From Blepharisma japonicum (lineage: Eukaryota > Ciliophora > Heterotrichea > Heterotrichida > Blepharismidae): 64,000 nucleotides of DNA. The notes beneath the pieces are model-generated. The model worked only from the letters and a program-made list of their open reading frames with translations, was not told the DNA's origin and did not search any database. Where the stretch lies: positions 1 through 64,000 of the forward strand of contig CATKHK010000095.1 in the NCBI GenBank assembly GCA_949751835.1, in the 5' to 3' direction. The position numbers and the translations under genes were made by a program. Every line of letters begins with the position of its first letter. The first letter of the stretch is position 1. Below are positions 24,619 to 48,585 of the stretch, in pieces.

Positions 24619-25827
24619 ATGATAAAGCAAGAAATTTCTAAGAGCAATAATCAGCCTGAACATATAAGAGAAGGGGTTTTTGATGAAATTTCTGAAACCA
24701 ATACCACAGCAAATCAAACACACAAAACAAAAGCGAAAACTAAAGGAAGAGGAAAAAATCAATTATCAGGCAGTCAAGAATACTCAAGAGACTCTGAAGA
24801 AGAGAAAAATGAGGATATTCCTGCCAAGCTTGCACTTGGAGAAAATATTGAAGAAGTCATCATTTCTGCAAACGGAGAAGAAATAAAACCAAAAATGCAT
24901 CTTGAAAAATTCAAAGAATTGAGCCTAGACAGCGAAGAATATTCTAGCAGCTCTAAAAAAGAAGAAATCTTTGCTAAAGAGCTTCCATCCTGTGGAACTC
25001 TCAAAAAAGGAGCAACTGAAGAAGAAATAAATCTTACAGTAGAAACGAAAAAGGGTCAAATTCTGAGCCTAGGCAGCAATAACTCTAAGGAAGATGCAAA
25101 AGAAACTCCTGCTAAAAAATCTGGAGAAGAACCACAAATAGATACCAGCTCAGATAGTGAAGAAGAAATTAAACCCAAAAAGCGAAAAGAATCAAGCTCA
25201 GAAAGTGAGGAAGAAACAAATCAACAATACAAAAAAATTATTAAAGCTCCTCCCTATAAAACTGGTGCAGACACAGAAATCTTCATAGGTAACTTGCCTT
25301 ATCAAACTACATCTGACGATCTCCACAATCTTTTTTCTAAACGTGGAGAAATTAGAAGTATTAAACTCGTCTATGACTGTGAGGGAAATCCCAAAGGAAT
25401 AGCATATGTGAATTTCTCTGATATAGAATCTACAAATAAGGCCCTTGATCTTAACGGTGAGCAATTTATGGGAAGAAACATCAGAGTTTTACCATCAAGT
25501 GACAAACCCCCAGGTCCAAAAACTACTGCGACAAGTCAAAGCCAAGATAAGCCTGAAGAAGCAGCAATTATTGGGCCAAGTATTGAAAAATCGACTACAA
25601 TTTTTGTTAGAAATCTTTCCTTTACCTCAACTATTGATTCTATAAGAAATTTTTTCGAGGTATGTGGGGAAATCAAAGATATAGGAGTTGCGCTTGATTC
25701 TAAAGGAAACCACAGAGGGTTTGCGTTCATTGAGTTCTTTGCCATAGATGCTGCTGAAAAAGCGATTCAACTGAATGAGAGAGTGCTTAATGGAAGAAAG
25801 ATTAAGCTAGATTATTCAAAGAGCTAA
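24619..25827 (+). CDS. Nucleolin/Nsr1-like protein with two RRMs
   Basis: 402 residues, no intron. Residues 1-205 are acidic and Ser/Lys-rich with repeated S-S-D-S-E-E-E and S-L-D-S-E-E-Y blocks, typical casein-kinase-2 sites of nucleolar proteins. RRM1 (about 215-290) has RNP2 I-F-I-G-N-L and RNP1 K-G-I-A-Y-V-N-F. RRM2 (about 320-395) has I-F-V-R-N-L and R-G-F-A-F-I-E-F. Nucleolin-type proteins act in rRNA transcription and processing. There is no C-terminal GAR domain, unlike yeast Nsr1 or vertebrate nucleolin. A second gene of the same layout lies at 47553-48515. Confidence 0.9.
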   Translation: MIKQEISKSNNQPEHIREGVFDEISETNTTANQTHKTKAKTKGRGKNQLSGSQEYSRDSEEEKNEDIPAKLALGENIEEVIISANGEEIKPKMHLEKFKELSLDSEEYSSSSKKEEIFAKELPSCGTLKKGATEEEINLTVETKKGQILSLGSNNSKEDAKETPAKKSGEEPQIDTSSDSEEEIKPKKRKESSSESEEETNQQYKKIIKAPPYKTGADTEIFIGNLPYQTTSDDLHNLFSKRGEIRSIKLVYDCEGNPKGIAYVNFSDIESTNKALDLNGEQFMGRNIRVLPSSDKPPGPKTTATSQSQDKPEEAAIIGPSIEKSTTIFVRNLSFTSTIDSIRNFFEVCGEIKDIGVALDSKGNHRGFAFIEFFAIDAAEKAIQLNERVLNGRKIKLDYSKS

Positions 25828-26181: not shown

Positions 26182-27270
26182 ATGGCGTCTTTTTTTAAAC
26201 ACCAAACAACGTTCTCTCCAAGCGCTCGTGGTAGCATCAGATCAGCTGGATCTGGCAGACATTCAAAAACGCTGCAGTCTGCTCCTTCTTATACAGGCTC
26301 TGCTTTTTCTCGTATTTTTAGCGAAAAAAACATAACAACGAATATCTTGCCGACCTTTTTGGTTTCAGAACAAACAAAGAAAGGAATCACTGAAGAAGAT
26401 CTTCAAAGGTTAAACCTTATGAATTCTTTATATTCCAATCCTCAAGAATCCTTGTCAAGAACTCAAGTAATTTTCAGCTCTCGGGACTCCTTAGGAAAAT
26501 GTCAATCAGAAACAAATTTCAAGCATTCTCTTATGGTTCCAGAGCCTGCGCCAAGACCAAGCTTGCCTAGCGAAAGTCGACTAAAAATCAGCACAGAAAA
26601 AATTGAAGAGGTCAAAAAGATTGAAAAAATCACACGAGATATTTTTAATCCTACCCTAAAGCCTAGCGAAGTATTGCTGTCTATAAGAAAACGAGACTTA
26701 AGAAGAGAAGATTTGGTGAAACTAAGAGAAGGGGTTGACTTGCCAGAGTGCATTATTGATTGCTACCTATCCATTCTTAAACATACCAACAGCTTAAGAA
26801 TAAGGTATACTCCTGGAGCACTAAAAGTCCTTATTGCAAGTGCGAGCTTTAGCTCCATGATTTTTTTAAAAGGCAAAGAAATAGCTCAACCAAAGTCAAA
26901 TATTTTCAAATACGATTTTTTACTATTTCCTCTAAATGTAGGATACTGAACTTTATTAGTAGTAGATATGAAAAGGATGATCGTAAAATATTACGATCCT
27001 ATTAAAGAGCACAGAACCATTTCTATTGTTATGAATAGGCTCTCAAAATTCGTTCAAAAAGCAACTCCAAGAGAAGAACAAAGAGTAGTCACGAATTTTC
27101 AATTCATCTCAATTCCTCTGCAAGGGGTAAGTATGATGGATAGCGGAGCGTTTATTTGTAATGAAGCAGAAAATCTAGCTTGTGGGAAACAAAACAGAAT
27201 AACTAAAGAGTCAGTCGATAACTATAAAAAGGATATGCTGGCAGCACTGGTAAAAGCATCAAGTATATAA
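26182..27270 (+). CDS. Ulp1/SENP (C48)-like protein with catalytic His and Cys replaced
   Basis: 362 residues; TGA 26947-26949 is Trp. Residues 1-65 are basic and Ser-rich. A K-K-G-I-T-E-E-D-L-Q-R block (about residue 70) is shared with the gene at 27517. The C-terminal 190 residues have a Ulp1-like order: a strand F-L-L-F-P-L-N-V-G-Y-W-T-L-L-V-V-D, then Y-Y-D-P-I, then M-D-S-G-A-F-I-C-N. In active C48 proteases these read H-W-x-L, Y-D-S and D-C-G-x-x-x-C. Here the catalytic positions are Tyr255, Asp272 and Ser321. Spacings of 17 and 49 equal those of yeast Ulp1 (His514, Asp531, Cys580). The fold is likely kept but proteolysis is not expected. It might bind SUMO or another ubiquitin-like protein (inference). 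Confidence 0.8.
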
Positions 27271-27516
27271 CGGTGTAAATAGGCCATGAGCCTATAAAAA
27301 TGCAAATATAAAACATAATAAATACTTTATTTATACAGCTTAAGATAAGACACATTATCATTACTAGAATTTTTTCTTGTAAAAAATATGTATAGATAAT
27401 TATTTCATTAAATTGAGAGATAAAATTAATATAACCATAAATAATAATAATAATCTTATTTGATTGTCCAGTAAAAATTATATTAGATTTCCATTAAAGA
27501 TATCAATAAATAATTC

Positions 27517-29404
27517 ATGGAAGGAAAATTTCATGAAGGGCAATTAGTGTGGGCAAAAGTCGAAAATTATCCATGGTGGCCAGCAATTGTATGAATTATT
27601 TAAGGTTGATAGTGTTGAAGAAAATAATATTTCTGAGTTTGATGAAGAGCCAGAATTTCAAGGCGTCATCACAGTCAATTTAATCGGTGAGAATACATAG
27701 TAAGTTTTACATAGTGCTCATTTAAATTCAAAAAAAATAGTAGACTATCAAGAAGCGTATCAAACACATTCTAACGTAGAAGACGAGGTAAAATATACTT
27801 AGAAACTTAAAAACTGTATCACAATCGCAAACAAGCTTTTAGCTAAAGAGCTTGATATCACAAATCTTGAAGAAATCAACACAAATTTAATAGCATTTCT
27901 TCAGAAAAACCACCCAAAAGAAGAGCACATAGAATCCGGAAGTCTTGACACTTCAGATGAAGAAATCAAACGAATAGTCAAAGAAATCAACAAGCACCTA
28001 GACTCAAAAATCGCGCTTAATGAGCGTTCAACTGACCTCAGCGGCTTGTGCAGCAGTTCTGACACCACAAGATACAAGCTTGAAGAGCTCTTACGGATTC
28101 TTACCATCTTTATTGATCAAGAAGACTCCAGCAAACACTATCTCCCTGTCCGCGAGCTCTGTGGCAATCTTTCTTTTATAGTCCAAATAATCCCTGAATC
28201 CTCTCTGCTTGAAGGTTCAAAAGTCTTAAAAGCCCTCAAAACATTTAAAAATAAAGAAAAAGAAAGTTCAAGCAGTCTTCTGAAATTTCTCTCACACATT
28301 TGTCACAAGCTTTATTTGTTTTGGAAAAAAAGCTTGATTAATGCAAGTATAAAAAACTTGGTTACTTCAAATAAGCAGCAAATAAAAAAGAAAGACGAAG
28401 AAAATTGGGGATCAAGAAGCTTTGTGGCGCAGTCAAGTACAACTCCTGAGCCAATGAAAAAAGGAATTACTGAAGAAGATTTAAGGAAGTTTAACATGAT
28501 GAACTCTTTAAATTCAAGTAATCAGGAAACTATGTGGAGGTATAAATCAGGGCTAGCTACTACTCCAATACAAAGTAATATTAGCCCTAAAGCAGATAAG
28601 AAACAAAAAACTACATCATATGCTGATGCACAGAGGTCTAGTCTTACTAGTGATAATCTTATTACAAGAAATTTCAGCCCACCAGGAGAAACAAGAGCAA
28701 GTCTTGAACAAAGCCCAGTAAATAGACTTGTTGATTTGTCTCCAGAAGAAAATAAAAGGCTTGATACTGAAACTGATACTGCTTCACAGATAGGAGACGT
28801 TTTATTAGCAATTAGAAAAAGAGAACTAAAGCGAGAAGATTTAGCTAGACTTAGAGAAGGAGTAGAATTGCCTGAAAGTCTTGTAGACTGCTATTTATCA
28901 ATCCTTAAACACACAAATAGCTTAAGAATTAGATACACCCCAGGTACACCAAGAGTTATGATAGCAAGCTCAAGTGTAAGCAAAATGATTTTTATTAAAG
29001 GAAAAGAAATTTCTCAGCCAGAACCAAAAATATTTAAACACGATTTTTTAATTTTCCCTATTAATGTGGGATATTGGACTTTATTGATAGTGGATTTGAA
29101 GCACATTGTAGTTAGGTATTGTGACCCTATGAAGGAGCATAAATCTATATCAATGCTTATAGGGAAATTGGCGAGATTTATACAAAAAGCGGCCCCGAGA
29201 GATATTCCTAAGCTAAATACTAATTATCAGTTTGTCACTACTCCAGTACCAGATATAAATAGGGGCGATACTGGAATTTACATATGCAACGAGGTAGAAA
29301 ATTTAGCTTGTGGAAAACAAAATATAATTAACAGAGAAACTGGAGATGTCTATAGAAAAAGCATGCTGCTGTCACTTGTAAAAGCTTCAGGTGCAGGCGT
29401 CTAA
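27517..29404 (+). CDS. PWWP domain + helical TFIIS-N/LEDGF-like domain + inactive C48-like domain
   Basis: Exons 27517-27588, 27605-27699, 27715-27787 and 27803-29404 (introns of 16, 15 and 15 nt); 613 residues. The PWWP domain (1 to about 85) starts G-Q-L-V-W-A-K-V-E-N-Y-P-W-W-P-A-I; such domains read methylated H3K36 nucleosomes. Residues about 165-260 form a helical domain (R-E-L-C-G-N-L-S-F-I-V...H-K-L-Y-L-F-W-K-K) that recalls the TFIIS N-terminal/LEDGF integrase-binding fold. After the G-I-T-E-E-D-L block comes the Ulp1-like domain with N-V-G-Y-W-T-L-L-I-V-D, Y-C-D-P-M and G-D-T-G-I-Y-I-C-N. Triad positions are Tyr504, Asp521 and Thr570, again 17 and 49 apart, so both the acid-base His and the nucleophile Cys are gone. 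It is likely a chromatin-bound pseudo-protease. Confidence 0.85.
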
Positions 29405-29500
29405 GTGAAAAAGCTATTTAATTAAGGTATTTTATTGATGGATTTGAGAATTAATTTTTCATTTTTTATAGAGTTTATATACATTAATAAATATTAATAA

Positions 29501-30809
29501 ATGGAGGGAAAATTTGAGAAAGGACAGTTAGTTTGGGCAAAGATTAAAACTTATCCATGGTGGCCAGCAATTGTATTATTAACCTTAGATCGATAAAATT
29601 GAAAAAATAAATGCTGCAGAGCCTGATGAAGAGCCAGAATACCAAGAAGAAATCACTGTAAATTTCATAGGAGAAATGTCACAGTAAGCTTAATTTAGCG
29701 CTACTCTTAGTCCTATAGATATTAATGGCTATCAAGAGACTTATAATGAGCATTGTATTGTTAAGCAAAAAGTATTAGCTATTTAGAAACTAAAAAATTG
29801 CATTTTAATAGCAGACAAAATTGCTTCGAAAGAAATTGATCTTTCCGAGCTTCCTGAAATTAATAAGAATTTGGGGGCTTTTATTGAAAAAATCATGAAC
29901 AAGAAAGAAAAGAGTAGGTCATCATCGTCTGAGACAGGGTCTGATGAAGAGCCAAAGCCAAAAAAGAATCAAAAAATAGAGAATTCAGAAGATAATGGAA
30001 GCAAAAGACTAAAAGAAATAAACAAGCAGATAGACATAAAAATGACACAAAGCGATAAAAATACAGAGCATGGCAGAAAAAGAGAGATTGAAAATATCAA
30101 TGCAAAACTTAGCGAATTATCTAGTGGATTATCCACATATCTAAATAGGGAAGAAAATAAAGAGGAAGCAAAAGAGCCGCTTTGCCCTGTGGATGATTTG
30201 TGTGAACGTTTAGCTTATTTAACTCAGAACAGCCCTGAAAATGCTGTTTTAGAATCCTCTAAAATACTAAAAACTTTAAAGCTGTTCAGAGCAAAGTATA
30301 CAGAAAATTCAAACCAAAATCTAAGAATTTTGTCTGAAATTTGTTACAAATTGTATCTTTTTTGGAAAAAGTGTATAATTAATGAAAAAATTAAAAATTC
30401 AGTCAACCCTCCAGCTCCTCCTACTCCAAAGCCAGCTCGAAAGCCAAAATCAGAAGCCAAACCAAAAGAAACCCCTAAAAAGCCTGCAGCAAAACCACCA
30501 TCAAAACTCAACAAAAATCCTCCAAAGCCTATTGAAAAAGAAGAAGCCAAAGAACCTCCAAAACCATCCACAGATGAAACAGCCGATTGGCCACTAAGAA
30601 AAAAAGTCTGCAGAAAACTCGCCAAAATAATCATAGAAAGAGGACACCCGAAAGCTCAATCCCAAGACTATGCTTTACACTTCGAAAGAATATTACGGGA
30701 AAAAGACCCTCAAATGAAAACCAAGTATAAAGAAGCTTTTATCAATTTACGAGGAATATTATCAAACCCAGACAAAGCTCTCGAAAAAATAATTTCAGAG
30801 TTTCAATAA
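29501..30809 (+). CDS. PWWP domain + helical domain + TFIIS central-like domain
   Basis: Exons 29501-29572, 29589-29683, 29699-29771 and 29787-30809 (introns of 16, 15 and 15 nt); 420 residues. The PWWP cassette (G-Q-L-V-W-A-K-I-K-T-Y-P-W-W-P-A-I) and all three intron positions match the gene just upstream. The helical domain (D-D-L-C-E-R-L-A-Y-L-T...Y-K-L-Y-L-F-W-K-K) is also shared. Instead of the C48-like part it has a Lys/Pro linker and a C-terminal region R-K-K-V-C-R-K-L-A...Y-A-L-H-F-E-R-I-L...Y-K-E-A-F-I-N-L-R-G-I-L-S-N that fits the TFIIS central (TFS2M) fold. No zinc ribbon follows, so transcript-cleavage stimulation is not expected. PWWP-TFIIS combinations are known in other protists. 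A role in transcription elongation on marked chromatin is inferred. Confidence 0.82.
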
Positions 30810-33497: not shown

Positions 33498-35888
33498 TTA
33501 TATTAAAAAATTTTTTGGAGGGTCAATAATCATAAGTTTTCTTCTTTCTTTAAACGGAGAAATAGTCACTAATTTAAGCGATCTATTAGATTTAGAAATC
33601 CCTTGAGGATTATCTCTGATAGATCTTTGGAGACTTCTAGAGCTGTTAATCCTATTAGAATAATGAGAAAAGGAAGTTTGTGTATGATTTCCGTCATCAG
33701 TTTTTGGCTTGGTAGGGATTCTGTATTCTAAATAATCTTTTATTAAATAGCTTTTAGCGACTACTGCTACTTTTCTAATCTCTGGGGTTGAAGGCTTTTT
33801 TTGAATCGTCGTTTTTGAATACGAAGTTCTGCGCATTGGGCTTTCTCTATTATATTTCATTCCAAGCTCTGGCGATTTGCAATACCTAGTATCCCTTGTA
33901 ATTTTTTGAGTTTTTGCTAAAAGTGGATGCGGCTTTTTGAATTTATTCATTTTTGATATCAAAAATTTTTGTTTTTTGTCGTCAATATCTGAGTCTCCAG
34001 AGTCTTCACTTAAACTTCCTTCATCTAAATCTACAAACAATTCTCTAAAATCTTCTTCATTTATATTTTGTAGAGAATTTAGGATCGTAAATTCATCTTC
34101 TTCAGCTTCAACTTCCTGTACAATTTCTTGAACAATTACTTCTTGATGGTGCTTTTGCTGTTTTTGTAAATTATTTACAATGATATCCATTTTTTTCTTA
34201 AAAAGTCCTTGAGTTCTAAACATAAGCAGCTGCCTACACAAATCCCTCCCTAAGCTCTGCAAATGGTCAATGTTCATATGTGTATCATCACTTTCTTCTT
34301 CCTCGCTAGCTTTCAACATATCTTTATTATCAGGCCCAAAAAAAGAAGCTTCTAATGTGTAGCTGTTCACGATCCCGAATTCTTTATAAACGACTACTCG
34401 AGCTGCACCTTGTTTAAACCTCTCTGTCCTAAACTTGGTTCCTTGAAAAGAAAACAGCTTATTGGTTTTTGATAAAAAATAAGGAATCATACTCATAAGG
34501 ACTTTTTTCTTTTTGCTTTGGTTAGGGGAACAAGCATACATAAAGACGTTCTTTTTAAGGGAATGGCCATGCATGTCACAATACATGACAATTTCGTGGG
34601 ATTTATTGAATTTTTCTATCATTTTTTTAGTGTAAAATATAGTAGGATGCATTATTTCATCAGGATTTTTTCATCGGCGATTCAAATCAATCCCTAACAA
34701 AGAGCATCGACAATTTCCATATATAACCCCATCAGGATTCAGCATTGGGACTATCCTAAAAATAAAATTTTTTCTCAAAATTCTAGCATCTTTGGTATCA
34801 CTTAACAGAAAATCAATAGCTCCCTGCATCATATAGCTTGAATTAGTTTCCCCTGGGTGAGCCCTGCCTGTCAATATGACTCCTTTCTTGCGGGAATGTT
34901 CATTCACTAACTATAGATATACCTTACATTTTAATTTCTCCTTACCATTATATTTCATGGTATTGTACATGTATTTTTGCTTTGCAGGCAAAAAATCAAG
35001 GGAAGGATATGTACAAACGTTGCTGGTTATAGTCAAAATTGGGCAAGAATTATCACCTAAGGTTTTACAAAGGGATTCAATCCTTAGAATTTTTTCGTGA
35101 GTTTTAAAGCTTCCTAGGTATGCCAATAGGTGGTTATATGTGTATGGGTAACAGTAAGCAAAAAAAACTTGGTCATTAGGATGTTCAAATTTATAAGAAA
35201 ATGTTAAGGTATAGTAAAATACAGGTTTATTTGGGGTAGATATAGGTCTTTGAAAGGAATTTTGATAATATGATACATTATAGCCAGCCCTTTTTCATCC
35301 ACCTCCATCTCTGCGAGACTTTACAAGTGGTAGCATCCCACCGTTATATAGTGAGTCGAATTTCATTAAATTGACAATATTAAATCTGATATTTTCATCA
35401 GCTTTATTATTTTCAACCGCAAAATAGTATCATTGAGTATACCCTTCAGTTTCTGTATCAAATTCTAACAATAAATTATATTCATTTTCACTAACTCTTA
35501 TAGCCTTCCTTAAGTTTCCACCTTCGAATTTTGACTCAAATTTCAGTGAGTCTTGAGGAATAACTAATGTATATTCGCATGGAATTGTTTTATTTGACGT
35601 ATAATTCCGCATATTCAAATATTGGATTCTATCTGATTAGGGTTTACCGTATTCATAATTTTTTTCTACTTTTTTATTCTTATATTCCGGTAACGACTCT
35701 CTAGCTACAAATTTATTAGTTTCTTCATATAATATTTCGTCTGATCTTCGTGAATGAGAATCAAAGACCAGAATCCCATTTGCCTCATATCGAAACAGAT
35801 GGTATCTAGAACTTCCTGGCCTTATTTCGTTGAATTCGTCATTGTCAAACTTCCATTCTTGGCTAGAATGCTGGGTAGTTGTACTCAT
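33498..35888 (-). CDS. Cytosolic carboxypeptidase (M14 CCP/AGBL)
   Basis: About 787 residues from ATG 35886-35888. A 15-nt intron lies at 35633-35647. A second interruption near 34911 contains an in-frame TAG and needs an intron of 12 nt (34911-34922) or 21 nt (34907-34927). The N-terminal CCP beta-domain has [16 protein letters not shown] and Y-T-Y-N-H-L-L. The catalytic domain has zinc ligands in A-H-P-G-E-T-N-S-S and D-M-H-G-H-S, substrate-binding L-N-P-D-G-V and D-L-N-R-R-W, and the catalytic Glu in N-S-Y-T-L-E-A-S. CCPs trim glutamate from tubulin tails. G-N-C-R-C-S-L-L-G is closest to the AGBL4 kind. The last 250 residues are a polar extension. Tubulin deglutamylation fits a heavily ciliated cell. 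Confidence 0.88.
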
Positions 35889-44002: not shown

Positions 44003-46300
44003 TTAATCCAGCCTATCTTCGCTCAAATGCACCCTCTTTGGCTTACAATTTGGACAGTAAAACTCTTCAGGAACTTGTAAATAATTAAATTTCATGCATC
44101 CATAGTGAAACCAGTCATTGCATTGCTCGCATTCGACCATTCCTGTATATCATTGTCTTTTTTCAAATTCTTCCTCAGTCTCAGTAGGTCTTTTATAGGT
44201 TTTATCTACAAAAGGTTTCCTACAAATACAATAAACTTCCTCAGTAACTAGATCTTCTAGGATAGGTGGTTCAATTATGGACTGGACAAATTTTAATTCC
44301 TTTTTGGCTTTTTCTTTTTCTCTTTCTAACCTTAAGATAATTTTCTTTTGTTTTTTGATTTTTCCTTTGGGCATGTAGGTGGTTGGCTGGAGATTTAAAA
44401 CTGCAAGTTCTTTTTTAATTAGGGGCTGGATAAAAGCTTTATAGTATGTGTAACATTCTAATGGTTTTCGGCCTGAAACTGTGATATTATATTTTAAAAT
44501 AGCTTGAGGATCTAGTGTATTATATATAAATGGCCTTTTTATATCAACAAAGCTTCTCAATGCATTTGATGAATTTTTTGGTTTGACTATGAATGCAAAA
44601 CTATTATTTTCATGTTTCAAAAGATAATCAAGCTTATCATCCATTGCTTTCATCAGCTGGAATTTTTCTAAGCTTGAAAATGCCCTATCTTCGCTTCTCA
44701 GTTTTTTTGGCTTCGGCGGGGTATTTTTTGTAATTTTTTTCTTTTTTGACACTTTTTCCAATATTTTTGCAAAACTTATGATATCGAGGACACTTTTTTT
44801 TTCTCTGTTTTCTAAGACCCTCCTAAGCTTTAAAGGCTTATGCAATGTACAATATAAGCTAACTTCATCGTATCCAGACTTATCCCGAGTATTTGTAAAT
44901 AAATCTTTAGCACATTCTGGGTGAAATGCAGCTTGGCATCTGCCATGTTGGCATTGTAAACAGGCCCCTTCTTTGCTTCCACATTTTTGACATCTTAAGC
45001 TGAACCTTTTCATGTCAATTTTTGTTAAATCAATTCCTGATACGTTGATTTTGTCAGTAATTGTGGCAGATTCTATATGTAAAGCACAGAAAACATGGAC
45101 TCATACTTTTTCTGGATTTCCTTTGTATTCGTAATTAGGGAAGGTTAAGTCTTTTGAAGTTTCATGGATCGTTAATTTTAAGGCTCCACCAACTACTGAG
45201 CATAAGGCGCATTTTAAATTGTGCCTTTCGTCAAGGCTGCTAGTTTTTTCACATGCTTGGCAGTATCAATCATGGTCAGGGACTGTAGGAATTCCATAGC
45301 ATTTCATATGAGCACCCATCTCACATTTGGAACAAATTACAATTAAATCATCATCTTCATAGTCGCCATCTCCACAAACACCACACACCCAATCTTCTTC
45401 ACATTTTGGAGGGCCACGGAGCCCACTTTGTCGCTTCTCAGATAAAGAAAAATCAGTTTCTCCTCTTCCTTTGCTTTCAAAATATTTTAAATATTCTTCA
45501 TAGTGTCCTCTTCAGCTTAGTTTTTTGATTTCGCCTAAAATTAGATCATCTTCTTTATTGTGTGTGATTTTTTTCATATTTATTTCAGGTATTTCTAACG
45601 TATTTTTATTTATTTCAGGCTTAATAAACTCAGTGAATATATTTTCATTGTAGCCAGCTTTTTCGGCGAGTTTCTTTTCGTATTTTTCTATTAAAAAATC
45701 AATATCCCCATTTGAAAATCCAAGATCTTCCTTTTTTTCTTTAACACAAAAATTAGGTAAACTTGTAATTGTATAAGTACTTGGAAAATATTGGACGTTA
45801 ATTATGTATCACAGAATTTGTCCTGTATATACACTTTGGGATTTAAAATCATCGATAGTTTCTTTAATAACTTTTACTGATTCAGGATCTTGGTTTGCTT
45901 TGTGACAAGCTTGTCTAGTTTGCCAGACACGTTGATATTCTCTCTTTTTTCGGCCATTTGGAAGATGAATGTCACATTTAGGGTCTTCTAAGTTAAATGA
46001 TTGATGAAGTGTTCACTTCATACATCACGGATGAACAACCCTTGAACACCCATAAGATCTACAATGCAAAGTCATTCCAGATAGCCCACAAATTATACAA
46101 GCTCTATTTTCTCTGCAAGAAGAATGGGCTAAAGATCCACTTGGAAGCTTAATTAATGGATTTGTCCCCTTTTCACAAAAGATGCAGACTTGGCGAGAAC
46201 TTTGGTTTTCATAATGGAGCTTAATTGGCTCATCAGCTGGAGTGTCGCTGGATTCCTCATAAAGAGTTGCCGCGCTATGCAACATTATAAAATCCCCCAT
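44003..46300 (-). CDS. Multi-PHD chromatin protein, JADE/BRPF-like
   Basis: 765 residues in one frame with several TGA Trp codons; a standard-code reading shows only fragments. In order: an N-terminal Cys/His module (C-I-F-C-E-K-G...C-I-I-C-G-L...C-S-R-V-V-H-P-W-C), a helical middle, a PHD finger (W-V-C-G-V-C...C-S-K-C-E-M-G-A-H...W-Y-C-Q-A-C), a zinc knuckle (C-A-L-C-S-V-V-G-G), an extended PHD (W-V-H-V-F-C-A-L-H and C-Q-K-C-G-S...C-L-Q-C-Q-H...H-P-E-C-A), a basic linker, and a last PHD (Y-C-I-C-R-K...C-E-Q-C-N-D-W-F-H-Y-G-C...Y-C-P-N-C). The PHD-knuckle-ePHD block is the JADE/BRPF/AF10 signature that reads the histone H3 tail. Probably a HAT-complex subunit or similar. Confidence 0.9.
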
Positions 46301-46426
46301 ATGAACTGATCAAAAATAAGATTGGCTCAGGCAAACATGGAAAAGGATCTATTTAGAGATAAAGACTTATCAGAATTAAAGAAATCAGAAAATTATTTTG
46401 AAAAATCGAGAAATTTTGGAAAATAA
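46301..46426 (+). CDS. 41-residue micro-ORF, head-to-head with the PHD gene
   Basis: The ATG is the base-for-base neighbour of the reverse-strand ATG of the PHD gene (sequence CATATG). It reads 41 codons to TAA with TGA as Trp at codon 3: M-N-W-S-K-I-R-L-A-Q-A-N-M, then a highly charged helix D-L-F-R-D-K-D-L-S-E-L-K-K-S-E-N. The composition looks coding rather than random. It could also be a 5'-leader ORF or chance. No spliced continuation was found. Confidence 0.35.
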
Positions 46427-47552: not shown

Positions 47553-48515
47553 TTAATGCTTTGCTTTTTTAAATAACTTTCTTACCTTCGTAATTTTTTC
47601 GCCTTTGTGTGGTTTATTTTTGCTAATTTTTGTTCTTTGTGCTAAATAGTTAACTTTTACTTCATTTCCATCAAGTTTTCTTCCATCTAGTTCAACAGCC
47701 TCATCTGTTGCTTTTACTTGGTAAAATTCTACAAAGGCAAATCCTTTTCTATTTTCTTCTGTGTCTAAAGGAATTTGTATGTCTTTTATATCTCCGCAGT
47801 CTTTGAAGAAATTTTTTATTGATTCTTCAGTGGTGGCATTAGAAATATTTCCAAGGTAAACTGAAGCTTTTTTGTTGATAGGTTTTTTAGGAATATTTGA
47901 TAATCCTTGTGACATACTGATTCTTATAGGTCTTCCTAAAAGGTTTTGACCACTTTTTTTAATAGCTTCTTTGCATTCTTCAAGGTTCTCGAATTTTACG
48001 ATTGCAACACCTTTGGTTGGGATGCTGATTTTTTGGATTTTTCCACAGGTGGATAAAAAGTCACTGATATCTTTTGGCTTTGCTTCAAAAGAGAGACCTC
48101 CAATGACAATGTCTGGATCTTGAATTTTTTTTGCTGGGGCTGGCTTTTTGGTGGCATCAAGCTTATTTTTCTTTTTAGGAGGCTCAGCTTCGTTTTTGGA
48201 TTTTCTCTTCTTTGGGAGCTCAACTTCTGGCTCTATTTTTGCTTTGGTTTTTGACGGGGTTTTTCCTTTTTTCTTAGTTTCAGCTTCTTGTTTTTGTTCT
48301 TTTTTCTCTTCTTCTATAGGCTCTTTCAATTTTTTCTGATTTCCTTGTGATTTGGCTTTAGGCTTTTCTATTTTTTCTTCTTCCTCTCCGCTCTCAGATT
48401 CCTCTACTTTGCTCTTTTCTTCTTTTTTGAATTGCTCTTTATCTTTTTTGTGTAATTTCCTTTCTTTAGCTGCCGATTTCTCAGCACCTTTTTTGCTTCT
48501 TTCTTTGTCTTTCAT
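47553..48515 (-). CDS. Nucleolin/Nop-type protein with two RRMs
   Basis: 320 residues, no intron. Residues 1-130 are Lys/Glu-rich (K-K-D-K-E-Q-F-K-K-E-E, S-E-S-G-E-E-E-E). RRM1 (about 138-205) is degenerate, with I-V-I-G-G-L and K-G-V-A-I-V-K-F. RRM2 (about 220-295) has V-Y-L-G-N-I and K-G-F-A-F-V-E-F. The tail is basic (K-P-H-K-G-E-K-I-T-K-V-R-K-L). It has the same plan as 24619-25827 and probably acts in ribosome assembly in the nucleolus. Confidence 0.87.
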   Translation of the reverse strand: MKDKERSKKGAEKSAAKERKLHKKDKEQFKKEEKSKVEESESGEEEEKIEKPKAKSQGNQKKLKEPIEEEKKEQKQEAETKKKGKTPSKTKAKIEPEVELPKKRKSKNEAEPPKKKNKLDATKKPAPAKKIQDPDIVIGGLSFEAKPKDISDFLSTCGKIQKISIPTKGVAIVKFENLEECKEAIKKSGQNLLGRPIRISMSQGLSNIPKKPINKKASVYLGNISNATTEESIKNFFKDCGDIKDIQIPLDTEENRKGFAFVEFYQVKATDEAVELDGRKLDGNEVKVNYLAQRTKISKNKPHKGEKITKVRKLFKKAKH

Positions 48516-48585
48516 TTTTATTATTAAATTCCTTACATAAATTTTCCCTTAAGAAAAATGTTAATTAATTAAGCCAATATTGAAT

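Follow-up and report, generated by a model that had tools for sequence, protein, structure and literature searches.

The window, i.e. the whole stretch of DNA that was analysed (64 kb), carries three consecutive genes on the + strand. They are, in order, gene 1 (a putative pseudo-Ulp), gene 2 (a PWWP domain followed by a putative pseudo-Ulp), and gene 3 (a PWWP domain followed by another C-terminus). The genes and the features discussed below are as follows:

26182..27270, + strand: gene 1, intronless, 362 residues; an N-terminal part with no domain match, then a C48-like domain
26668..27267, + strand: Ulp1/SENP-like (C48-like) domain of gene 1 with substituted catalytic residues; this piece matches PF02902 with E = 5.4e-13
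26944..26946, + strand: Y255 of gene 1 (TAC), column of the catalytic His (Ulp1 H514)
26995..26997, + strand: D272 of gene 1 (GAT), column of the catalytic Asp
27142..27144, + strand: S321 of gene 1 (AGC), column of the catalytic Cys (Ulp1 C580)
27517..29404, + strand: gene 2, 613 residues; PWWP domain, helical region, linker, C48-like domain
27517..28363, + strand: gene 3-like part of gene 2 (residues 1-267), PWWP domain and helical region
28448..29392, + strand: gene 1-like part of gene 2 (residues 296-610), KKGITEEDL linker motif and C48-like domain
28793..29401, + strand: gene 2, C48-like domain; this piece matches PF02902 with E = 3.3e-8
29072..29074, + strand: Y504 of gene 2 (TAT), column of the catalytic His
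29123..29125, + strand: D521 of gene 2 (GAC), column of the catalytic Asp
29270..29272, + strand: T570 of gene 2 (ACT), column of the catalytic Cys
29501..30809, + strand: gene 3, 420 residues; PWWP domain, helical region, unrelated C-terminal part

Gene 1 is a single open frame provided that its sole in-frame TGA (codon 256, 26947-26949) is read as Trp. In alignments, this codon falls on a TGG of gene 2 and on the SENP Trp that comes after the catalytic His. Gene 2 is assembled from four exons (27517-27588, 27605-27699, 27715-27787, and 27803-29404) separated by introns of 16, 15, and 15 nt (27589-27604, 27700-27714, and 27788-27802). The exons of gene 3 span 29501-29572, 29589-29683, 29699-29771, and 29787-30809, and the positions and lengths of its three introns are those of gene 2. 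In Blepharisma stoltei, UGA encodes Trp and introns are mostly 15 and 16 bp long (PMC9942806, excerpt). Owing to this match, the reading of TGA as Trp and the 16/15/15-nt introns of the window genes point to a Blepharisma-like heterotrich as the likely source of the DNA.

Genes 1 and 2 both encode a domain of peptidase family C48, as the initial annotation had proposed. The Pfam profile Peptidase_C48 (PF02902, cut-off 20.7 bits) matches gene 1 with 47.4 bits (E = 2.7e-12) and gene 2, searched from its fourth exon, with 32.1 bits (E = 1.3e-7). Against PDB sequences, phmmer aligns SENP2 over the length of the domain with the whole gene 1 protein (E = 1.8e-6; domain at residues ~161-354) and with the 27803-29404 frame of gene 2 (E = 9.4e-5), and a profile built from the two domains retrieves SENP2, SENP1, and Ulp1. 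The phmmer alignments place a Tyr on the catalytic His, an Asp on the Asp, and a Ser or Thr on the nucleophile, and a separate MAFFT alignment of four domains (gene 1, gene 2, SENP1, and SENP2) yields the same column assignments.

We take Ulp1 H514, D531, and Q574 to be the catalytic His, the catalytic Asp, and the oxyanion Gln, respectively. Ulp1 C580 is named as a residue in an excerpt of PMC3216068. The residues proposed earlier at the triad positions, Y255/D272/S321 in gene 1 and Y504/D521/T570 in spliced gene 2, are numbered exactly, as are the spacings of 17 and 49 in both proteins and the surrounding motifs (GYWTLL from residues 254 and 503, D-S-G from 320, D-T-G from 569). The spacing of 49 does not hold throughout the family, since Asp and nucleophile are 53 apart in SENP2 by hand count. 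The oxyanion Gln column is occupied by G315 in gene 1 and D564 in gene 2. Both copies therefore carry replacements in three of the four catalytic columns (His to Tyr, Cys to Ser/Thr, Gln to Gly/Asp), and Asp alone is left of the His-Asp-Cys triad and oxyanion Gln that characterize a C48 peptidase. An alternative alignment restoring a His and a Cys to the active site was looked for among all His and Cys residues of both domains, and none falls in any of the four catalytic columns: C326 (gene 1) and C575 (gene 2) occupy the usual fifth position past the nucleophile, while C520 of gene 2 adjoins the Asp. Loss of catalysis in both proteins, as first suggested from the triad residues, is thus well supported by these alignments with SENP1 and SENP2, and to judge from these residues neither protein almost certainly has any catalytic activity left.

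The structural models are less informative. AlphaFold models are poor, with mean pLDDT values of 39.9 (two-sequence alignment) and 44.5 (three-sequence alignment), so the assignment to the C48 fold rests on sequence. Ulp1/SENP entries still come first in Foldseek, occupying ranks 1-24 of the best 50 rows with the first model, and SENPs occupy ranks 1 and 2 with the second, being mixed with helical proteins from rank 3 on among the best 50 rows. As the Foldseek score includes sequence and no match reaches E = 0.001, ranks from such poor models are supporting at most. The gene 1 model superimposes on its Foldseek matches with a TM-score of ~0.3 and an rmsd of mostly 11-13 Å. The structural check called for in the initial annotation has therefore left the fold unconfirmed, with SENP/Ulp1 as the best-ranked neighbours.

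Orthologues were sought in collections of viruses, bacteria, archaea, and phages. The two-domain alignment gave 154 pattern matches in viral contigs and 140 in genome contigs, none of which was confirmed, and tblastn found no match to the gene 1 domain in phages. The shared Tyr is most simply explained by loss of catalysis in a common ancestor, as had been put forward; no outgroup that could bear on this was found in the collections searched. Viral contigs scanned for the active C48 motif gave 23 loci (2 + 21), none of which was used in the alignment. Two of these have open frames with nothing C48-like by eye, and the other 21 lack an H-W within 110 residues upstream of the motif in their open frame, one of them having H-Y. 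PF02902 found no match in one viral locus record, which is uninformative, as 14 control genomes were equally silent.

The first half of gene 2 resembles gene 3 instead. Pfam detects a PWWP domain, of a type that usually binds chromatin, in gene 2 (E = 5.7e-13) and in gene 3 (E = 2.8e-13), above cut-off in both. The MUM1-like PWWP profile scores lower than the plain one (27.4 and 29.5 bits, respectively, for a cut-off of 27.7). Residues 1-267 of gene 2 align with residues 1-286 of gene 3 over 289 columns, 123 of them identical (E = 9e-71), and residues 296-610 align with residues 63-361 of gene 1 with 48% identity over 319 columns (E = 2e-104). Genes 1 and 3 have no significant similarity to each other, and Pfam finds no C48 match in gene 3. 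By these alignments, gene 2 is a chimera placed between its two apparent sources, gene 3 being apparently the source of, or a sister to, its first half. The order 1-2-3 is as expected after one unequal crossover, or one tandem duplication, whose breakpoints lay within genes 1 and 3. The reverse scenario, with gene 2 ancestral and partial copies on either side, is possible; synonymous divergence is saturated or nearly so in both halves of gene 2, and their ages are not comparable. Intergenic DNA around the three genes contains short AT-rich matches only, which neither favour nor contradict a duplication. The 64-kb window holds no further copies, tblastn of the three proteins adding two chance-level matches (E = 0.062 and 0.56).

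Several other resemblances were considered for these proteins. By eye, the stretch around KLYLFWKK in genes 2 and 3 looks like a TFIIS N-terminal domain (TND), with no match in Pfam or among PDB sequences; IWS1 structures appear in the Foldseek search with the second, poor model at E = 0.34 and 0.70. Likewise, the end of gene 3 resembles the TFIIS central domain by eye, a likeness that no profile or PDB sequence backs. RsmJ, RAP-1, TRIP12_N, Lon_lid, PRK08207, and PHA granule matches, as well as PDB chains of RlmJ, adenylyl cyclase, and GGGP synthase, are below cut-off or at chance level, and among designed repeat proteins no single stretch passes alone.

The claim that the C48-like domain has been retained holds. 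Both frames are intact and, over 203 codons, pN between genes 1 and 2 is 0.205 for a pS of 0.815, purifying selection being judged from pN against pS alone as synonymous sites are saturated (domain dS not computable). Whole-domain identity in the MAFFT alignment is ~60% for both pairs, 118/195 between genes 1 and 2 and 117/196 between SENP1 and SENP2, which allows their local conservation to be set side by side, with one sequence pair per side and ciliate conservation known from two paralogues only. Around the nucleophile (columns -12 to +1), 3 of 12 columns are identical between genes 1 and 2 versus 10 of 13 between SENP1 and SENP2, the native count of the latter being one higher because the PDB chains carry different engineered changes at the nucleophile. 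The Asp surroundings are closer (5/11 versus 7/11). In contrast, the helix past the tunnel motif is better conserved in the ciliate pair (18/21 versus 12/18), and so is the strand of the Tyr/His column (10/12 versus 7/13). This good conservation of the Tyr strand indicates that relaxation occurred at the nucleophile and not over the whole former active site. Sliding windows of 15 columns between genes 1 and 2 reach 15 identities in SILKHTNSLRIRYTP and drop to 4-5 in the nucleophile loop; one stretch away from the active site (column 116) is as variable (5/15). The segment DCYLSILKHTNSLRIRYTPG is identical in both. The drift of the nucleophile to Ser or Thr, as suggested initially, is in line with a nucleophile loop that belongs to the stretches where the two copies agree least. 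Selection appears to maintain the C48-like domain but not its nucleophile loop. Such a pattern is expected of a pseudoenzyme that acts by binding and speaks against a Ser/Thr protease.

We consider it likely that genes 1 and 2 encode pseudoproteases acting by binding, gene 2 being most likely a nuclear adaptor. Their C48 domains would have been kept by selection after losing the His, the Cys, the oxyanion Gln, and the SUMO-tunnel Trp. The junction of a dead domain with a PWWP is what suggests a chromatin adaptor: gene 2 probably anchors its dead Ulp fold on chromatin, its PWWP domain holding the protein on nucleosomes while the Ulp fold would present a protein-docking surface. The best candidate for this surface would be the helix and loop DCYLSILKHTNSLRIRYTPG together with the Tyr strand, and not the old nucleophile loop. 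Candidate partners may include an unrelated nuclear protein as well as SUMO or another ubiquitin-like modifier. As gene 1 lacks a PWWP domain, the chromatin link is not common to both genes. The earlier proposal of a role "on chromatin" therefore finds support in gene 2, through its PWWP, and none in gene 1.

The same proposal held that the dead domains bind SUMO or a ubiquitin-like modifier. They would then serve as readers or traps, with gene 2 recruiting or shielding sumoylated proteins on chromatin. We take Ulp1 W448 and W515 to be the Trp residues of the tunnel for the SUMO tail. In SENPs, Trp residues form the cover of the tunnel through which this tail is threaded (PMC10919355, excerpt). 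In SENP1, F496 touches Tyr91 of SUMO1, and R511 and K514 touch its Glu67 (PMC12687455, excerpt). Seven SUMO-contact columns were compared, the four of Ulp1 (W448, N450, D451, and W515) being placed by script and the three of SENP1 (F496, R511, and K514) by hand on the MAFFT alignment. Two are kept in both copies: the W515 column is identical (W256/W505 in genes 1/2), and the D451 column keeps an acid as Glu (E189/E438). The K514 column is Lys in gene 2 only, gene 1 having an Asn. The remaining four are changed in both, the W448 column to D186/E435, the N450 column to P188/P437, the F496 column to Ser, and the R511 column to Pro (in the phmmer alignment of gene 1, a gap). By its contact residues, neither copy matches a SENP-type SUMO binder.

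Data on Ulp1 itself, from excerpts of PMC3216068, bear on both sides of the question. Inactivated Ulp1 (C580S) binds SUMO1 tightly (Kd 12.8 nM, preliminary BiaCore analysis), and docking of Ulp1 is lost altogether with D451N, which lends weight to the acid kept in this column. The evidence on N450 is mixed: N450S with two further changes lowers docking at the septin ring and strengthens the SUMO two-hybrid signal. Furthermore, conservation within the domain is near its lowest in the nucleophile loop, which would face the C-terminus of SUMO. With four of the seven contacts changed and the best-conserved stretch located elsewhere, an adaptor with another partner is favoured over a SUMO/Ubl reader. 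The latter is possible, though doubtful, and the idea of SUMO binding on chromatin is only partly supported.

A role as regulator, in which the dead domain pairs or competes with an active Ulp/SENP paralogue elsewhere in the genome, is less probable still. To our knowledge, Ulp/SENP enzymes do not form dimers, which counts against such pairing. Regulation is nonetheless a role that dead paralogues are known to take on, as in the prozyme of Trypanosoma described in an excerpt.

That the proteins are enzymes with a rebuilt site, using a Ser/Thr nucleophile with Tyr as a base or some other chemistry, appears very improbable. The kept Asp, the D-(S/T)-G and G-Y-W motifs in register, and the conserved Tyr strand (10/12) would fit such a site. 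However, the nucleophile differs between the copies, its loop is poorly conserved (3/12), the oxyanion Gln is gone, and relatives of the OTU family with Ser in place of Cys are inactive (PMC4654579, excerpt). Equally implausible are decaying genes or an artefact of assembly, splicing, or genetic code, which the degenerate catalytic residues might suggest but which the intact frames, a domain pN far under pS, the recurrence in gene 3 of the three intron positions of gene 2, and the alignment of TGA with TGG all contradict.

Dead members of modifier-protease families are already known elsewhere, in the OTU family (PMC4654579, excerpt), and what sets this locus apart more is the chimeric PWWP-pseudoUlp gene. 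In the open-access literature, no natural dead Ulp/SENP protein is named among the matches listed, which does not imply absence from print, and no paper was found that brings PWWP together with Peptidase C48. With its two apparent sources on either side, gene 2 also clearly exemplifies fusion of genes within a tandem array. Should a modifier or a nuclear partner dock on the fused protein, the latter would illustrate how a protease fold turns into a reader or an adaptor, and the comparison with SENP1/SENP2 would provide a simple sequence test for such conversions, namely the loss of constraint at the nucleophile loop. A more specific scenario, which we regard as speculative and rather unlikely, is that a heterotrich lineage built a chromatin-tethered reader from a dead SUMO protease by fusion, through a tandem duplication with breakpoints in a PWWP gene and a pseudo-Ulp gene, and that this reader, seated on nucleosomes, captures a modified protein rather than removing its modifier.

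Three known systems provide points of comparison. With Ulp1/SENP (MEROPS C48, clan CE), genes 1 and 2 share homology over the length of the domain, the triad Asp, the strand with a Trp after the His column, the D-x-G-x-[FY]-x-C strand, and the acid of the D451 column. They differ by the His to Tyr, Cys to Ser/Thr, and Gln to Gly/Asp replacements, by Asp/Glu for the tunnel Trp and Pro for N450, by five additional residues in the loop past the first helix, and by a divergent nucleophile loop. Like the PWWP readers LEDGF and HRP2, gene 2 has an N-terminal PWWP domain followed by a helical region (helices from the poor model); in contrast to them, it has no profile or PDB support for a TFIIS-N/IBD and ends with a pseudo-Ulp domain instead. 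Inactive deubiquitinases of the OTUD4 type, such as Drosophila CG3251 and Otu, likewise exchanged Cys for Ser and were retained, with gene duplication (PMC4654579, excerpt). Unlike these, genes 1 and 2 belong to C48 and not to OTU, have also lost the His and the oxyanion residue, and include one copy fused to a PWWP domain.

The N-terminal PWWP half is common to gene 2, which ends in a C48-like domain, and gene 3, its downstream neighbour (27517-30809), and its three tiny introns occupy identical positions in both. Beyond this half, gene 3 continues into an unrelated C-terminal part; by eye, this part resembles a TFIIS central domain, for which profile searches gave no support. A short stretch, KKGITEEDL...N.MNSL.S..QE, is conserved in the linker preceding each C48-like domain (26377-26448 in gene 1 and 28457-28528 in gene 2), and may be a separate binding motif in its own right.

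Other features of the window are:
24619-25827, forward strand: nucleolin-like protein, acidic/lysine-rich N-terminal part, two RRM-like stretches
33498-35636, reverse strand: two open frames that share one reading frame, with a single stop between them (34911-34913)
44003-46348, reverse strand: large protein, by eye carrying several PHD-type zinc fingers
47553-48548, reverse strand: nucleolin-like protein, acidic/lysine-rich N-terminal part, two RRM-like stretches

The PHD-type gene is a further chromatin-type gene in the neighbourhood. In 33498-35636, the second frame starts near what by eye is the HPGE motif of an M14-type carboxypeptidase; the intervening stop is probably part of a tiny intron. 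The C-terminal parts of the nucleolin-like proteins appear similar by eye, and the two possibly form a further paralogous pair.
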